A DNA stretch of 64,000 nt from Acidobacteriota bacterium (GTDB lineage: Bacteria; Acidobacteriota; Terriglobia; Terriglobales; Acidobacteriaceae), in assembly GCA_021793405.1 (NCBI GenBank), contig JAJYSV010000015.1:1-64000 (forward strand). Direction: 5' to 3'. Below, piece after piece: positions 35,011 to 64,000 of the stretch. Within the stretch, counting starts at the first letter, position 1. Each line of letters opens with the position of its first letter. The notes beneath the pieces were generated by a model. That model was not told where the DNA came from and did no database searches. It worked only from the letters and a program-made list of their open reading frames with translations. Position numbers and translations under genes: made by a program.

Positions 35011-35067
35011 GGTGTTGCGACTAAAGGGTAAGGCGCAGGGACTGCGACTTGTTTGGGGGAAGAGCCA

Positions 35068-36339
35068 ATGAAGCTCGCCGTAGCATTCGGCAAACAGGGC
35101 TTGATTCTCACGTTGCCGCACGGGCCGCATTACGAAGTCTTGAAGGCCCGCTCCGCATCTCCGGTGGCGGATGTACGCCGAGCCTTAGACGCCGCCCTCG
35201 ATGCCCCCCTCGGATGCCTGCCGCTGACGGAGCTTGCGGCCGGGAAAAGAAGCGCTGCCATTTCGGTTTGCGACATTACGCGACCCGCACCAAATTCCAT
35301 CACATTGCCTCCGCTGCTGGCTCGACTGCATCGAGCTGGCATTGCGCCGGAGAATGTGACGCTCTGCATCGCAACTGGACTCCACCGCGCGGCGACGGAC
35401 GAGGAGCTGCGGACCATCCTGGGACCGACGATTGCGGAAACCTACAAGATCGTCAATCACGATGCGAGGGACCTGGAATGCCACCGCTTTTTGGGGGCGA
35501 CGATGCAAGGCACGCCGGTCTATATCGATGAACGATTTATGTCAGCGGACCTGCACATTACACTTGGATTCATTGAACAGCACTTGATGCTGGGGTTTTC
35601 TGGCGGCCGCAAATTGGTTGCTCCCGGACTGGCGGCGCAGGAGACCATCAAGGTCCTGCATTCGCCCCGATTTATGCGAGAGAGCAACGCAACGGAAGGA
35701 TCGATCTGCGAGAATCCGTTGCATACGGAGTTATTGGAAATCGCGCGCATGGTGCGTCACGATTTCATCCTCGATGTGACGTTGACCCGGACACGTGAGA
35801 TCTCCGGGGTCTTCGCCGGGGACCCAGTGGCAGCCCATGCCGCTGGGGTGGAATTTCTGCAGAACTCGTCGATAGAGTACCTGCCTGAGTATGTCGATGC
35901 CGTGATTACGACGGCTGCCGGTTATCCACTGGATCTGACTTTCTACCAGACCATCAAAGGAGTGACCGCCGTGCAGCACATCCTGAAACCCGGCGGGAAA
36001 ATTCTTATCCTCAGTGAGTGCGCCGAAGGCGTCGGCTCTCCGGAGTTTGCAGCGATGCTTCGTGCATATTCGGGACCTCAGGCCTTTCTGGACCGAATCG
36101 AAGAAGCGCCGGTCGAGGTCGATCAATGGCAGCTGGAGAAGCTTGCGCTCGTGGCTCGCAAGCACTCCATTTTGTTCTACACGCCGGGACTAACGAGTAA
36201 AGATATGGGCGCATTGGGGCCGCACTGTTTCTCCAGCGCGGAGACGGCGGTGGCGAATCTGCTGAGCGGACTGCCTGAGAACTCACGCGTCGCCGTGATC
36301 CCCGAGGGCCCTTACACGTTTGCGAGAGTGCGCGAGTAA
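35068..36339 (+). CDS. LarA-family (nickel-dependent lactate racemase-like) protein
   Basis: A 423-residue protein of the LarA family. The N-terminal domain starts KLAVAFGKQGLILTLP. The conserved block AAISVCDITRPAPNS and the His-rich stretches ATGLHRAATDEE and KIVNHDARD follow, with GFIEQHLMLGFSGGRKLVAP as in LarA. LarA uses a tethered nickel-pincer cofactor built by LarB, LarE and LarC; none of these is in this window. Other LarA relatives isomerise other 2-hydroxy acids, so the substrate is unsettled. ATG 35068 is preceded by GGGGGAAGAG; an upstream TTG at 35053 is possible. Confidence 0.88.
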   Translation: MKLAVAFGKQGLILTLPHGPHYEVLKARSASPVADVRRALDAALDAPLGCLPLTELAAGKRSAAISVCDITRPAPNSITLPPLLARLHRAGIAPENVTLCIATGLHRAATDEELRTILGPTIAETYKIVNHDARDLECHRFLGATMQGTPVYIDERFMSADLHITLGFIEQHLMLGFSGGRKLVAPGLAAQETIKVLHSPRFMRESNATEGSICENPLHTELLEIARMVRHDFILDVTLTRTREISGVFAGDPVAAHAAGVEFLQNSSIEYLPEYVDAVITTAAGYPLDLTFYQTIKGVTAVQHILKPGGKILILSECAEGVGSPEFAAMLRAYSGPQAFLDRIEEAPVEVDQWQLEKLALVARKHSILFYTPGLTSKDMGALGPHCFSSAETAVANLLSGLPENSRVAVIPEGPYTFARVRE

Positions 36340-60063: not shown

Positions 60064-61746
60064 ATGGGTCGACCGAAGTTTGCGAGGCCGCGGATTGTTG
60101 TCTTGCGGCGCGCGTCGCAGATCTTCTTTCTCGCCCTATTTCTGTTCCTTCTCGTCCGGACGCAATTCAATGGAACGATCGGTTCCGGCAGCGACATTCG
60201 GATGCGCTGGCCGGTGCGCCTGTTTTTTGAGCTTGACCCGCTGGCCGCGCTGTCGAACGCGCTGGCGACGCATGCGCTTTATCGAGGCATGCTGTGGTCG
60301 CTGCTGATCCTGCTGCCGGTGATGTTTCTAGGACGCTTCTTCTGTGGCTGGATTTGCCCGTTGGGAACGCTGCACCACTTTTTCGGGAATCTGAAATCCG
60401 AACAAAAGCGCGGGAAACAGTGGGTCGACTCCAATCGCTACAAACCGTGGCAGCGGACGAAGTATGTGATCCTGATCGCAGTGCTCACAGCGGCCGTCTG
60501 TGGCAGCGGCCTTGTGGGCTGGTTAGACCCTTTCAGCATGCTGACGCGGTCGCTGGGGCTTTCCATTGTGCCGGCAGCCAACTATGCGGCCAATGCAGCC
60601 CTGGGGCCGCTGGAACACAGCAGGTTTGGCCTGCTGCAGGCGATTGCGGGCGGGCTGCATGCGGCGCTGGCTGCGACCGTCCTGAATTTCCGCCAGCCGC
60701 ATTTCCGAGCCGGTGTGTTGCTGGGGCTGATCTTCCTGTTTCTGCTGGCGTTGAATCTTCGGGTGACGCGTTTCTGGTGCCGGGCGCTGTGTCCGCTGGG
60801 AGCTTTGCTGGGCGTTGCGTCGCGCTGGTCGATTCTGGGACTGCATAAAGATCCGAAATCCTGCGATCAGTGCAATCGCTGCCTGCTGCATTGCCAAGGC
60901 GGCGACAATCCGATTGGCGGCGTGCCGTGGCATAAGGCGGAATGCCTGATGTGCATGAACTGTGTGGATGTGTGCCCGCACCATGGACTGGAGTTCCAGC
61001 TGTTTCGCAAGGAAGCGGAGGTGGTGGGAGCGAATCTTCCTCGCCGCCGGGCGCTGGCCGCGGTTGCCGCCGGAATCGCTGCGCTTCCGCTGTTGCGCGC
61101 CAATACGGCGCTCGGCAAAAGCCGGGATGCCCACCTGATTCGGCCGCCGGGCGCCCTGGATGAGACCGATTTTCTTTCCCGTTGCATTCGCTGCGGGGAA
61201 TGCATGAAGGTGTGCCCAAACAATTCCCTGCAGCCCACGCTGGCGGAGGCAGGTCTGGAGGGCCTGTGGACGCCTATGTTGACCCCGCGGATCGGATATT
61301 GCGAGCCCAGTTGCGTGCTTTGTTCCGAGGTTTGCCCGACAGGCGCGATCTGGAAGATTACTCCCCAGGAAAAGGGATGGGTGGTCGGACTTGGTGGCCC
61401 CGGAGAACAGACACCGCAGCCGGTGCGGCTGGGCACGGCCTTTTACGACCGCGGTCGATGCCTGCCGTGGGCCATGGCCACCAACTGCATCGTGTGCGAG
61501 GAGTGGTGCCCGGTTTCTCCGAAGGCGATCTATTTGCAGGAGGTTGAGATCATCGATGCCGAAGGCAACAAAAAAGTGGTCAAGCAGCCGCACGTGGATC
61601 CCAGCCGATGCGTGGGCTGCGGGGCCTGCGAATACGCCTGCCCACTGCAGGAGCATCCGGCGGTATACGTGACCAGTATCGGAGAAAGCCGGTCGGCGAG
61701 CAGTCAGATTTTGCTGACCAGGAGAGAGGGAAAAGAGCAGTCATGA
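60064..61746 (+). CDS. NapH-NapG-like membrane polyferredoxin fusion
   Basis: A 560-residue protein. The N-terminal half (to about 260) resembles NapH/CcoG-type quinol-dehydrogenase proteins: four or five helices with the conserved CGWICPLGTLHH and CRALCPLGALL loops. Two [4Fe-4S] ferredoxin sets (CDQCNRCLLHC, CLMCMNCVDVCP) follow. A twin-Arg-like hydrophobic stretch (LPRRRALAAVAAGIAALPLL) precedes a NapG/MauM-like periplasmic part with CIRCGECMKVCP, CVLCSEVCP, CIVCEEWCP and CVGCGACEYACP. NapH and NapG are normally separate proteins; here they appear fused. It should pass electrons from quinol or cytoplasm across the membrane. It overlaps the next gene by four bases (ATGA). Confidence 0.85.
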   Translation: MGRPKFARPRIVVLRRASQIFFLALFLFLLVRTQFNGTIGSGSDIRMRWPVRLFFELDPLAALSNALATHALYRGMLWSLLILLPVMFLGRFFCGWICPLGTLHHFFGNLKSEQKRGKQWVDSNRYKPWQRTKYVILIAVLTAAVCGSGLVGWLDPFSMLTRSLGLSIVPAANYAANAALGPLEHSRFGLLQAIAGGLHAALAATVLNFRQPHFRAGVLLGLIFLFLLALNLRVTRFWCRALCPLGALLGVASRWSILGLHKDPKSCDQCNRCLLHCQGGDNPIGGVPWHKAECLMCMNCVDVCPHHGLEFQLFRKEAEVVGANLPRRRALAAVAAGIAALPLLRANTALGKSRDAHLIRPPGALDETDFLSRCIRCGECMKVCPNNSLQPTLAEAGLEGLWTPMLTPRIGYCEPSCVLCSEVCPTGAIWKITPQEKGWVVGLGGPGEQTPQPVRLGTAFYDRGRCLPWAMATNCIVCEEWCPVSPKAIYLQEVEIIDAEGNKKVVKQPHVDPSRCVGCGACEYACPLQEHPAVYVTSIGESRSASSQILLTRREGKEQS

Positions 61747-62231
61747 AAAAGATGGGAATAAAAACATGGATCGCGCTGCTGTTGGCGCTTGGCCTGGTGG
61801 GCGTGGGGTGCAGAAAAAAGAGCGTGGATCCGTTCCCGCCGACCGGAACGGTGCCGGGCTGGCAGAAGAGCGGAAACCCCCGCACCTTCGCCGCTGCGGA
61901 CCTGTGGCAGTACCTGGACGGAGGAGCAGACCAATACGTAAACGCAGGGGTGGTGACCGCTTCGACCTCCGACTACCAATTCCAGGGAAAGCTGGAGGCG
62001 GTGGTGGACGTATACACATTCAAGGCTGCCGATGGCGCCAGGAAGATCTTCGACACCGAGCCGACGGCGAAGAGCCAGGCGGCGCAGCTTGGCGATGCGG
62101 CGCGTGCCTCCGGACAAAGCGTGGTGTTTCGTCAAGGATCTTATCTGGTGCGGATCACGGCTTATGAGTCCGCACCCTATGTAGCGGAAGCTCTGCTGGC
62201 TCTAGCGCATGGCGTGGAGGGTCGGCTTTAG
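61743..62231 (+). CDS. Small lipoprotein of the redox cluster (DUF6599-like)
   Basis: A 162-residue protein with a signal peptide (WIALLLALGLVGVGCRKKSV) ending in a lipobox-like VGVGC, so it is probably anchored in the inner or outer membrane. The mature part reads LWQYLDGGADQYVNAGVV, VDVYTFKAADGARKIFDTE and GSYLVRITAYESAPYVAEAL. It resembles DUF6599 proteins as I remember them, a family of unknown function. The ATG overlaps the polyferredoxin stop, which implies coupled translation and perhaps a direct partnership. No cofactor-binding motif is visible. Confidence 0.65.
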   Translation: MKKMGIKTWIALLLALGLVGVGCRKKSVDPFPPTGTVPGWQKSGNPRTFAAADLWQYLDGGADQYVNAGVVTASTSDYQFQGKLEAVVDVYTFKAADGARKIFDTEPTAKSQAAQLGDAARASGQSVVFRQGSYLVRITAYESAPYVAEALLALAHGVEGRL

Positions 62232-62269
62232 AAGCAAAGGTAATTGCACAAGCATGGAGGAGGTGCAGC

Positions 62270-63271
62270 ATGAAGAACCGGCGTGAATTTTTGAAAGAGA
62301 TGGCGGCGGGCGCGGCCATTCTGGGAGCAGAGACGAAGTTCACCCTGGGCGCCGTGAAGACCGCAGCCAGGAGCGTAGGGAAGTCGAAAGTAGTGATTGT
62401 GTGCGACGAGAAAGTGCGCACCCCCGGACCGACTCCGGATGGACAGAGGGTCGCGGCCCTGCTGGACCATGCCATGCAAACCTACGCTAACAGCCAGAAT
62501 CCGGTGGACCCCTGGAAGCGACTGGTACGTCCGGGGCAGGTAGTGGGTCTGAAGGTTAACACCATCGCCGGCAAGGGGCTTTCAACGCATGTTTCGCTGG
62601 TGGAGGCGATCTGCGAACGCCTGCAGCAGGCGGGCATCCGCGCCGGCGACATTATCGTCTGGGACCGCACCAATCACGAGCTGGCCAGGGCCGGATACAC
62701 GCTATCCACGGCACCCGGAGGTGTGCGCTGTTTCGGTACGGACTCGGTCGGCTACGAAGACACGCAGTTGAGTTTTGGCCGGGTGAAGACGCAGCTTTCC
62801 AAGATCGTGAACCAGTGCGATGTCATCATCAACGTGCCGATTTTGAAGAATCATAACCTGGCCGGCGTCACCTTTGCGATGAAAAACATGTATGGGGTCA
62901 TCAAGAACCCGAACGCGCAGCATGGCGGCGGATGCAATCCTTACGTTGCCGACCTGAACGCGGTTCCGGAGATTCGGAACAAGGTGCGTTTCGTGGTCGG
63001 CGATGTGATGACGTCGCAGTATGAAGATGGGCCGGGATTCAATCCCGCGTATACGTGGAACTATAACGGGCTGATGGTGGGCGAGGACCGGGTGGCGATC
63101 GATTATACGGGCTGGCAGATTATCAAGCGCAAGCGCGCAGAGATGGGGATGCAAACGCTGGAGCAGGCAGGCACTCCGCCGCTTTACATTGCGACCGCGG
63201 CGGATACGGGACATAGGCTGGGAAGCAACGATCCCGGCCAGATTGCCCTGATCGAGACGACGGTTGCCTGA
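62270..63271 (+). CDS. Tat-exported DUF362 protein
   Basis: A 333-residue protein with a twin-arginine signal (NRREFLKEMAAGAAILGAE) and the DUF362 core: VGLKVNTIAGKGLSTHVSLV, IIVWDRTNHELARAGY, INVPILKNHNLAGVTFAMKN, MYGVIKNPNAQHGG and VGDVMTSQYEDGPGF. Unlike many DUF362 members it lacks its own ferredoxin cysteines, which the neighbouring polyferredoxin may supply. It has a strong GGAGGAGGT ribosome site, 38 bp after the lipoprotein gene. The biochemical role of DUF362 proteins is largely unknown. Confidence 0.85.
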   Translation: MKNRREFLKEMAAGAAILGAETKFTLGAVKTAARSVGKSKVVIVCDEKVRTPGPTPDGQRVAALLDHAMQTYANSQNPVDPWKRLVRPGQVVGLKVNTIAGKGLSTHVSLVEAICERLQQAGIRAGDIIVWDRTNHELARAGYTLSTAPGGVRCFGTDSVGYEDTQLSFGRVKTQLSKIVNQCDVIINVPILKNHNLAGVTFAMKNMYGVIKNPNAQHGGGCNPYVADLNAVPEIRNKVRFVVGDVMTSQYEDGPGFNPAYTWNYNGLMVGEDRVAIDYTGWQIIKRKRAEMGMQTLEQAGTPPLYIATAADTGHRLGSNDPGQIALIETTVA

Positions 63272-63282
63272 AGGAGAGGGCC

Positions 63283-64000
63283 ATGGCTTCGAACAACCCA
63301 AAAATGAGTCGCCGCGAGGCGATGCTCCAGATGCTGCGGCTTGCTGGGACCGGCGCGGGCGTGGCCGCAGCAGCCTTCTGGCTCTCCGAACATAGCACAC
63401 GACCCACCGAGGCGCTGGCCGCCAATGCGAAGCGAGACCACACGGTGAAGTCGAATGCGGCGCTGCCGGAGATGGTGGTGGCTCAGGGGGTCAGTCCGGC
63501 AGGAGACGACCCGCGCGCACTGGTCCGGCAGGCGTTCGCCGACCTAGGCGGCGTCGGGCGCTTTATCGCGCGTCACGATGTTGTGGTGCTGAAGCCGAAC
63601 ATCGCCTGGGACCGCACGCCGGAGCAGGCGGCGAATACCAACCCCGATGTGGTCGCCGAGACGGTGCGGCAATGCTGGCAGGCGGGTGCGAAGCGGGTGA
63701 TCGTCACCGATGTCAGCTGCAATGAGGCAGAACGGTGCTTTCGCCGCTCCGGCATACAGGCGGCGGCGCGGGCGGAGGGGGCGGAAGTCATCCTTCCTGA
63801 CCCGCCGCGATTTCGCGAAGTGGACCTGGGCGGCGTCGTGCTGCAGAACTGGCAGGTGTTCGAGCCGTTTCTGCAGGCCGATAAACTCATTAATTTGCCC
63901 ATCGCCAAGCAACATGCTCTGACGGGCGCCACTCTGGGATTCAAGAACTGGTTTGGCATCCTGGGAGGCCAGCGCAATCGCCTGCATCAACAGATTCATC
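63283..64000 (+). CDS. Second Tat-type DUF362 protein, cut by window edge
   Basis: The first 239 residues of a second DUF362-family protein. It begins MASNNPKMSRREAMLQML, with an SRR motif and a hydrophobic segment (LAGTGAGVAAAAFWLSE), so it is probably Tat-exported. The core shows VVVLKPNIAWDRTPEQAANT, GAKRVIVTDVSCNEAERCFR, LINLPIAKQHALTGATLGFK and NWFGILGGQRNRLHQ, parallel to its neighbour. AAGGAGAGG stands just before the ATG and the gap to the previous gene is 11 bp. The two proteins are only distantly alike and may form a heterodimer. The end lies beyond the window. Confidence 0.85.
   Translation, partial: MASNNPKMSRREAMLQMLRLAGTGAGVAAAAFWLSEHSTRPTEALAANAKRDHTVKSNAALPEMVVAQGVSPAGDDPRALVRQAFADLGGVGRFIARHDVVVLKPNIAWDRTPEQAANTNPDVVAETVRQCWQAGAKRVIVTDVSCNEAERCFRRSGIQAAARAEGAEVILPDPPRFREVDLGGVVLQNWQVFEPFLQADKLINLPIAKQHALTGATLGFKNWFGILGGQRNRLHQQIH

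Follow-up and report, generated by a model that had tools for sequence, protein, structure and literature searches.

A NapH-NapG-type polyferredoxin operon with two DUF362 proteins of predicted LarA-type fold: a candidate exported nickel-pincer oxidoreductase

What could two DUF362 proteins with twin-arginine (RR) signals do in an operon that begins with a membrane polyferredoxin? The question is raised by the right end of the window, by which we mean the whole stretch analyzed, 64,000 nucleotides of contig JAJYSV010000015.1 from an Acidobacteriota bacterium (family Acidobacteriaceae). A first-pass annotation described four tightly spaced genes here, which we name A to D, and proposed that electrons reach the DUF362 pair outside the inner membrane, perhaps for a reduction on an unknown cofactor or substrate. 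We found that C and D almost certainly have, judging by predicted models, the fold of the N-terminal domain of LarA, and that D and A form the core of a recurring module, which in some lineages lies beside genes for the nickel-pincer (NPN) cofactor. We therefore propose an exported NPN oxidoreductase built on a LarA-type cofactor domain and coupled to quinones through A, a proposal that, taken whole, stands at about even chances.

The four genes

60064..61746, plus strand: gene A, 560 aa, NapH-NapG fusion polyferredoxin of the dual Sec/Tat polyferredoxin (PFD) type
61743..62231, plus strand: gene B, 162 aa, DUF6599 (PF20244) protein with a lipoprotein-like signal
62270..63271, plus strand: gene C, 333 aa, RR-signal DUF362 protein, predicted LarA N-domain fold
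63283..64000 in the window, with the stop at contig position 64281, plus strand: gene D, 332 aa, DUF362 protein with an RR signal, at the core of the recurring module

As read from the open reading frames (ORFs) of the window, the gene order is A-B-C-D, with a 4 bp overlap between A and B and gaps of 38 bp and 11 bp at B/C and C/D, so coordinates and spacing are as first annotated. The window end cuts D, whose stop lies 281 bases beyond and was read on the 71,049-base contig. The operon is complete with these four genes.

DUF362 proteins C and D are predicted to share the fold of the LarA cofactor domain

Both proteins exceed the DUF362 (PF04015) cut-off of 24 bits, with 84.1 bits for C (E-value 1.8e-23), 119.5 bits for the window part of D (2.6e-34) and 168.2 bits for the whole of D. 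Their own genome (G000; 4.6 Mb, 100% complete, 0.85% contamination) holds no other DUF362 match at E<=0.001. By reading, C and D carry RR signals and few cysteines, and a profile search gave no ferredoxin match for C or the window part of D, in line with the earlier description of two putatively exported DUF362 proteins lacking ferredoxin cysteines; the RR motif was counted in 83 of 85 D proteins. In NCBIfam, C, D and two D relatives matched just one entry, the presumably cyanobacterial Npun_F2552 family, whose DUF362 model NF052623 scored 27.5 bits for C and 44.6-81.7 bits for D and its relatives, far under the cut-off of 500 bits.

At a threshold of E<=1, sequence searches against Pfam found neither Lar_N nor LarA_C in C or in the part of D inside the window, while the LarA of the window has both. 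PDB sequence searches returned two ribosomal-protein rows with E above 0.5 for C, and none for D. DUF362 and the LarA N-domain belong to one Pfam clan, CL0471, with DUF2088 (LarA), and a LarA study uses DUF362 as its outgroup (PMC11770544).

We modeled C from the window sequence with 15 relatives (pLDDT 92.2). As D itself is cut by the window, it was modeled through a 79%-identical relative (L124) with 78 others (pLDDT 96.8). With each model, the structure search returned 19 PDB chains at E<=0.001, of which 18 are titled lactate/malate racemase or LarA-like; the 19th, 4nar, is titled as a T. maritima protein with no function in the title, and we take it to be a LarA homologue. Z scores against these chains (VIA) were 14.2-16.0 for C and 15.3-18.0 for the D relative, compared with 4.7 and 5.6 for the best other rows. 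The alignment of the D relative covers the LarA N-domain and ends near residue 270 or 286, and some C rows extend further. In LarA, the N-domain binds NPN and the C-domain binds the substrate (PMC12611868). C and D are too short for both domains and have no C-terminal substrate domain. They are DUF362 members and relatives of LarA in fold, and we do not file them as LarA, because the LarA sequence-domain test failed and the C-domain is missing.

In LarA of Isosphaera pallida, Lys183 tethers NPN, His199 ligates nickel, and His107 and His173 are catalytic (PMC11851776). The corresponding candidates in C and D form a His-Lys-His set, with the spacing His-x9-Lys and a later His in both proteins.

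62852..62923, plus strand: H195, K205 and H218 of C; the first two pair by alignment with the LarA catalytic His and NPN lysine, and H218 is a candidate nickel ligand by position only
63913..63987, plus strand: H211, K221 and H235 of D; the same His-Lys-His set, with equivalents invariant in 79 relatives

The C profile matched LarA with an E-value of 2.5e-5 and a score of 46, against a maximum of 23.1 in 30 column shuffles. This alignment places H195 on the His173 equivalent and K205 on the Lys183 equivalent, and stops before the third His. The weak D-LarA match gives the same His/Lys pairing, and H235 falls there on the nickel ligand. C and D match each other at E 3.8e-30; global hhalign was uninformative.

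The set was invariant in 79 D and 16 C sequences. The D alignment comprises 79 of 81 fragments, without L136, an apparent duplicate of L135, and without L144, where the reading frame continues; the C alignment comprises the window C with 15 of 17 fragments, leaving out L140 and L144. Across a wider set of 42 C sequences, the three residues occur at 98, 100 and 98%. Among the 30 best-scoring DUF362 loci of our phylum sample (247 genomes), some of them D-type, the motif K.H-x9-KN..G was present in 29, the L039 match being spurious. No invariant His was found at the LarA first catalytic position in the 79 D or 16 C aligned sequences.

D and A form the core of a recurring module

We scanned genome contigs with a D profile and used the best 80 of 434 loci, to which all counts of D loci below refer. 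By their titles, these loci come from Acidobacteria, Nitrospirae, Nitrospinae, Myxococcales, Deltaproteobacteria, Bacteroidetes, Magnetococcales, Eisenbacteria, Aminicenantes, KSB1 and others, and the nearest named D relatives, Acidobacteria records, are 79% identical. D and A lie on the same strand less than 3 kb apart in 69 of the 80 loci, which were found by D. A was present in 71, a recognized B in 27, C in 16 and an aldo-keto reductase in 11. The module core is thus D-A, often with B, and C is an addition in Acidobacteriota loci and one other (L175).

Matches to C occurred in 85 of the 247 genomes of the phylum sample, counted at E<=0.001 with weak matches to other DUF362 proteins included. 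From the 42 stretches that were read, we observed that A-B-C-D recurs in the same family (G171) and is rearranged in G122, G185, G078 and G193, and that G231 has the set without a recognized B. Chance grouping of the genes is ruled out by this recurrence in relatives, and the co-occurrence proposed as a check in the first-pass annotation is borne out.

Two further arrangements were noticed. A Parabacteroides distasonis plasmid record (L203) holds a Bacteroidota D-A pair with the His-Lys-His motif and the internal RR segment, possibly tractable for genetics. At L107:7765-10375, a DUF362-DUF6599-DUF362 triplet, with no A recognized in the 18 kb stretch, forms a second arrangement of the same partners.

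A is a polyferredoxin of a described type, and B a putative lipoprotein

Profile searches matched A to NapG (2.3e-28) and NapH (5.9e-28), with scores under both curated equivalog cut-offs (99.0 vs 269 and 97.8 vs 234, respectively). Its 29 cysteines fall into a NapH-like half and a NapG-like half, with an internal RR at residue 327 between them.

60862..60975, plus strand: residues 267-304, a pair of CxxCxxCxxxC motifs in the NapH half, before the RR; cytoplasmic side expected by analogy with NapH
61042..61113, plus strand: internal twin-Arg and weakly hydrophobic segment (residues 327-350), a putative Tat-dependent transmembrane segment
61183..61641, plus strand: residues 374-526, NapG-like part carrying four cysteine sets; periplasmic side expected

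The cysteine sets after the RR lie at residues 374-384, 413-424, 466-482 and 516-526. The profiles and cysteine sets thus agree with the NapH-NapG fusion with internal RR of the earlier reading. The segment after the RR fails a hydrophobicity threshold of 1.5 and passes one of 0.9. Such low hydrophobicity fits the description of the Tat-dependent segments of the PFD type, a NapH-NapG fusion for which Tat-dependent translocation of reporters was demonstrated with a relative (Tooke et al. 2017, PMC5449189). A twin-Arg hydrophobicity threshold gave 55 of 71 A proteins and 50 of 85 D proteins and was judged too strict by eye. We used the motif count instead, by which an RR motif lies between iron-sulfur (FeS) motifs in 69 of 71 A proteins. 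In joining a NapH part, an internal RR segment and a NapG part that bears four cysteine sets, A is a member of an already described architecture; since Tat insertion has been shown for a relative (PMC5449189), the fusion by itself is not new.

B has a hydrophobic N-terminus ending in GVGC at C23, a lipobox-like, non-canonical site; the lipoprotein of the first reading holds as a lipoprotein-like, probably exported protein. It matches DUF6599 at 6.7e-16. A crude lipobox pattern was present in 10 of 34 B proteins, whose start codons are uncertain. The open-licence literature searched contains no mention of DUF6599.

The module is linked to NPN cofactor genes

Three Acidobacteriaceae loci (L127, L130 and L144, among them a Terracidiphilus record) have larE-larC-larB upstream of A-B-C-D and in the same orientation, at distances from A of 0.16, 1.5 and 0.26 kb, respectively. 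Genes for LarB, LarC and LarE also lie beside an aldo-keto reductase-B-D-A set in L162 (Gammaproteobacteria) and L189 (Syntrophaceae), and in L200 (Glassbacteria) larE follows D-A, with LarE alone. With the three Acidobacteriaceae loci taken as one, these placements count as four lineages. Ten of the 16 lar proteins at the six loci were checked, and all 10 are over curated cut-offs; the other six were recognized by profiles built in this work. No LarA was recognized in any of the 80 D loci. The assembled genomes of L144, L162 and L189 gave no LarA match, while those of L127, L130 and L200 do have LarA.

We then compared 50 module genomes (L127, L130, L144-L190 and L200), a choice that kept all six lar-linked loci and left out L123-L126, L128, L129, L131-L143, L191-L199, L201 and L202. 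LarC was found in 45 of the 50, and in 21 of the 24 without LarA; minus the six lar-linked loci, these counts are 39 of 44 and 18 of 21. As identical LarC places reveal, these 50 genomes and the phylum sample have at least three members in common.

Among the genomes of the phylum sample without LarA, LarC was present in 53 of 62 with DUF362 vs 14 of 60 without (Fisher p 3e-12, ranging from 3e-12 to 1e-4 over nine threshold choices, in a test that ignores phylogeny), and the 53 genomes with LarC and DUF362 spread over 26 families. DUF362 predicts LarC as well as LarA does: LarC occurs in 132 of 149 DUF362 genomes and in 111 of 125 LarA genomes. Among 14 control genomes, five have DUF362, six have LarC and four have both; Synechococcus elongatus and Haloferax volcanii have DUF362 and LarC with no LarA match.

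The genome of the window itself has an adjacent larE-larC-larB, all over cut-offs, on contig C113. Two RR-signal aldo-keto reductases lie immediately upstream (L204:5191-10227). RR-signal aldo-keto reductases also precede B-D-A in several other phyla, and one of three tested passes the Pfam TAT_signal cut-off. This genome has a LarA homologue as well, which served as our yardstick.

35053..36339, plus strand: LarA homologue (Lar_N and LarA_C), outside the operon

Among the ORFs listed around this gene, no lar biosynthesis gene was recognized by eye.

Surroundings of the operon and of related loci

An ORF that starts 262 bases after D reads as a proton-pumping pyrophosphatase and is followed by MutS2 (translations read by eye). 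A known terminal reductase just 3' of D, which the first-pass annotation had named as an explanation of the set that would refute its reading, is ruled out by these two genes, and no known reductase was read in the 6.8 kb of contig remaining downstream of the operon.

Elsewhere in the phylum sample, an AmmeMemoRadiSam radical SAM gene adjoins C-type DUF362 in 36 of 41 C loci (L002, L040, L071-L110), and a Memo-AMMECR1 gene lies beside C in 23 of the 41. Radical SAM neighbors of C also occur at L123, L129, L133 and L138. Of all these radical SAM genes, two were checked against TIGR04337. Several of the proteins have a Tat-like N-terminus, and the one fusion that was checked has a signal-like N-terminus, which would be odd for a SAM enzyme. 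A LarA-family gene adjoins the C/radical SAM/Memo cluster in five genomes (L082, L083, L086, L087 and L088), and near D and the radical SAM clusters one repeatedly meets a large membrane protein that resembles spermidine synthase (L100, L123, L129, L131, L133, L138, L139 and L142; the L139 protein was the one checked). AmmeMemoRadiSam as part of the system of the present operon is ruled out, as a search of its genome at E<=0.001 gave no match to that radical SAM family.

Proposed mechanism

We infer the cofactor, and the path of electrons between D, A and quinone, from the computed fold, the residue conservation, the D-A module and the lar linkage. D, as the core, and C, as the second DUF362 protein of Acidobacteriota loci, would fold in the cytoplasm around NPN made by LarB, LarE and LarC, and, like other folded cofactor proteins, would be exported by Tat. 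Both keep the lysine that tethers NPN in LarA, one catalytic His and a candidate nickel-ligand His, and hydride would be exchanged with a substrate outside the membrane. The two electrons would run through the periplasmic FeS clusters and the membrane part of A, to or from the quinone pool. B may be an accessory exported protein and, at a guess, may help to bind the substrate.

The substrate, again as a guess, may be an alpha-hydroxy acid or a related alcohol/carbonyl. With no substrate domain and no second conserved catalytic His found, one-way hydride transfer would fit better than racemisation. Electron transfer from a hydroxy acid to menaquinone is downhill, and for this reason we lean slightly, as a guess, to oxidation. 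Within the proposal, we consider it probable that D exchanges electrons with A, and we favor, with some reserve, NPN as the cofactor of D. The unknown cofactor of the first-pass annotation thus gains a candidate; the LarA fold, the Lys/His set and the lar gene link had been missed there.

Weighing the alternatives

Several results weigh against an NPN cofactor. The D-LarA sequence match is no better than shuffles (26.6 vs a maximum of 27.2), and the third His of C and D pairs with the LarA nickel ligand by position only, at a Lys-to-His spacing of 13-14 vs 16 in LarA. The co-occurrence test, as said, takes no account of phylogeny. Because LarA is also encoded in the genome of the window, the NPN genes there are not necessarily for C or D. 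In G078 (99% complete) the whole A-B-C-D set occurs without LarC, which is also missing from G144 and G207 (of the G078 family), G176, G013 and G228 (94-100% complete), all with DUF362 proteins of the C type, the D type or both; the DUF362 proteins read from LarC-less genomes keep the motif, as does the Parabacteroides D-A pair. Bacteroides ihuae, a control, has DUF362 and no LarC. Conversely, LarC occurs without DUF362 or LarA in the controls Corynebacterium glutamicum and Methanocaldococcus jannaschii and in 14 genomes of the sample. Either the LarC-less module genomes have another cofactor route, or the pocket can hold something else. Since LarA genomes without LarC are about as common, this objection is weakened, not removed. 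If the pocket does hold something else, C and D would bind another cofactor or substrate in the His-Lys-His pocket of their LarA fold, A would still exchange electrons with them, and the lar linkage would reflect a shared lifestyle. The LarC-less genomes that keep the proteins and motif, the Bacteroidota D-A pair, the lack of a conserved first catalytic His and of a C-domain, and the non-significant D-LarA match all speak for this, and yet the physical larE/larC/larB linkage in four lineages and the association with LarC among LarA-less genomes argue the other way; we regard this explanation as rather unlikely.

The direction of electron flow is a separate matter. A might send quinol or cytoplasmic electrons outward for a reduction on the DUF362 pair, which overlaps our NPN proposal and differs from it in direction and cofactor. 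NapGH, which takes part in nitrate respiration, is a quinol dehydrogenase (PMC5449189), and A matches the NapH and NapG profiles. However, no test here fixes the direction, so the specifically reductive reaction first suggested gains no support, and the step from quinol to a pincer hydride would probably be uphill. We hold outward reduction to be possible, with the balance against it. A different role for C and D would be as assembly or delivery factors that hand a pincer or FeS center to an exported enzyme, such as the RR-signal aldo-keto reductases. Aldo-keto reductase genes do occur in 11 of the 80 D loci, and RR-signal ones lie by larE-larC-larB in the genome of the window, but none was recognized in the other 69 loci and C and D keep the catalytic-type His and Lys, which makes this role improbable. 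The profile similarity of A also suggests a plain NapGH-type branch for a nitrate reductase, or a related one, encoded elsewhere in the genome. This appears very improbable, given that A scores under the curated NapG and NapH cut-offs and adjoins DUF362 in 69 of the 80 loci found by D. No NapA was recognized beside A at the locus, and no genome-wide napA search was made.

Significance and comparison with known systems

About 15% of genomes analyzed in one study have larB, larE and larC but no larA, and a yet-unidentified NPN protein is expected there, in cyanobacteria with a fold distinct from LarA (PMC11796402). DUF362, a specific family that is widespread, has the predicted fold of the LarA cofactor domain and keeps the tethering lysine, is a candidate for this missing NPN user. 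With a likelihood that we put slightly short of even, DUF362 proteins may be the NPN-binding proteins of larA-less NPN genomes, and B-D-A the first known exported, electron-transport-coupled pincer oxidoreductase, with net redox chemistry and not isomerisation. If so, the question posed by that study would be answered, and respiration-linked redox chemistry outside the inner membrane would make use of a nickel organometallic cofactor. In the open-licence literature, we found neither a tie between DUF362 and the pincer cofactor nor a paper joining nickel-pincer, ferredoxin and periplasmic. The first-pass annotation's view of an undescribed system therefore needs to be divided: the fusion is already described (PMC5449189) and is not new, and the DUF362-NPN tie was not met in print.

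Compared with the LarA family, C and D have in common the N-domain fold (Z up to 18), the His-x9-Lys spacing and the following His. Unlike LarA, they lack Lar_N and LarA_C matches and a C-terminal domain, the first catalytic His was not found, and they are paired with a polyferredoxin and, by their signals, exported. The NapGH quinol dehydrogenase resembles A in domain content and expected topology, whereas A is a single fused chain and scores under the NapG and NapH equivalog cut-offs. PFD (Tooke et al. 2017, PMC5449189) shares with A the NapH part, the FeS sets, the internal RR segment and the NapG part in one chain; the available portion of that paper names no partner and does not mention DUF362, whereas A is paired with DUF362 proteins.

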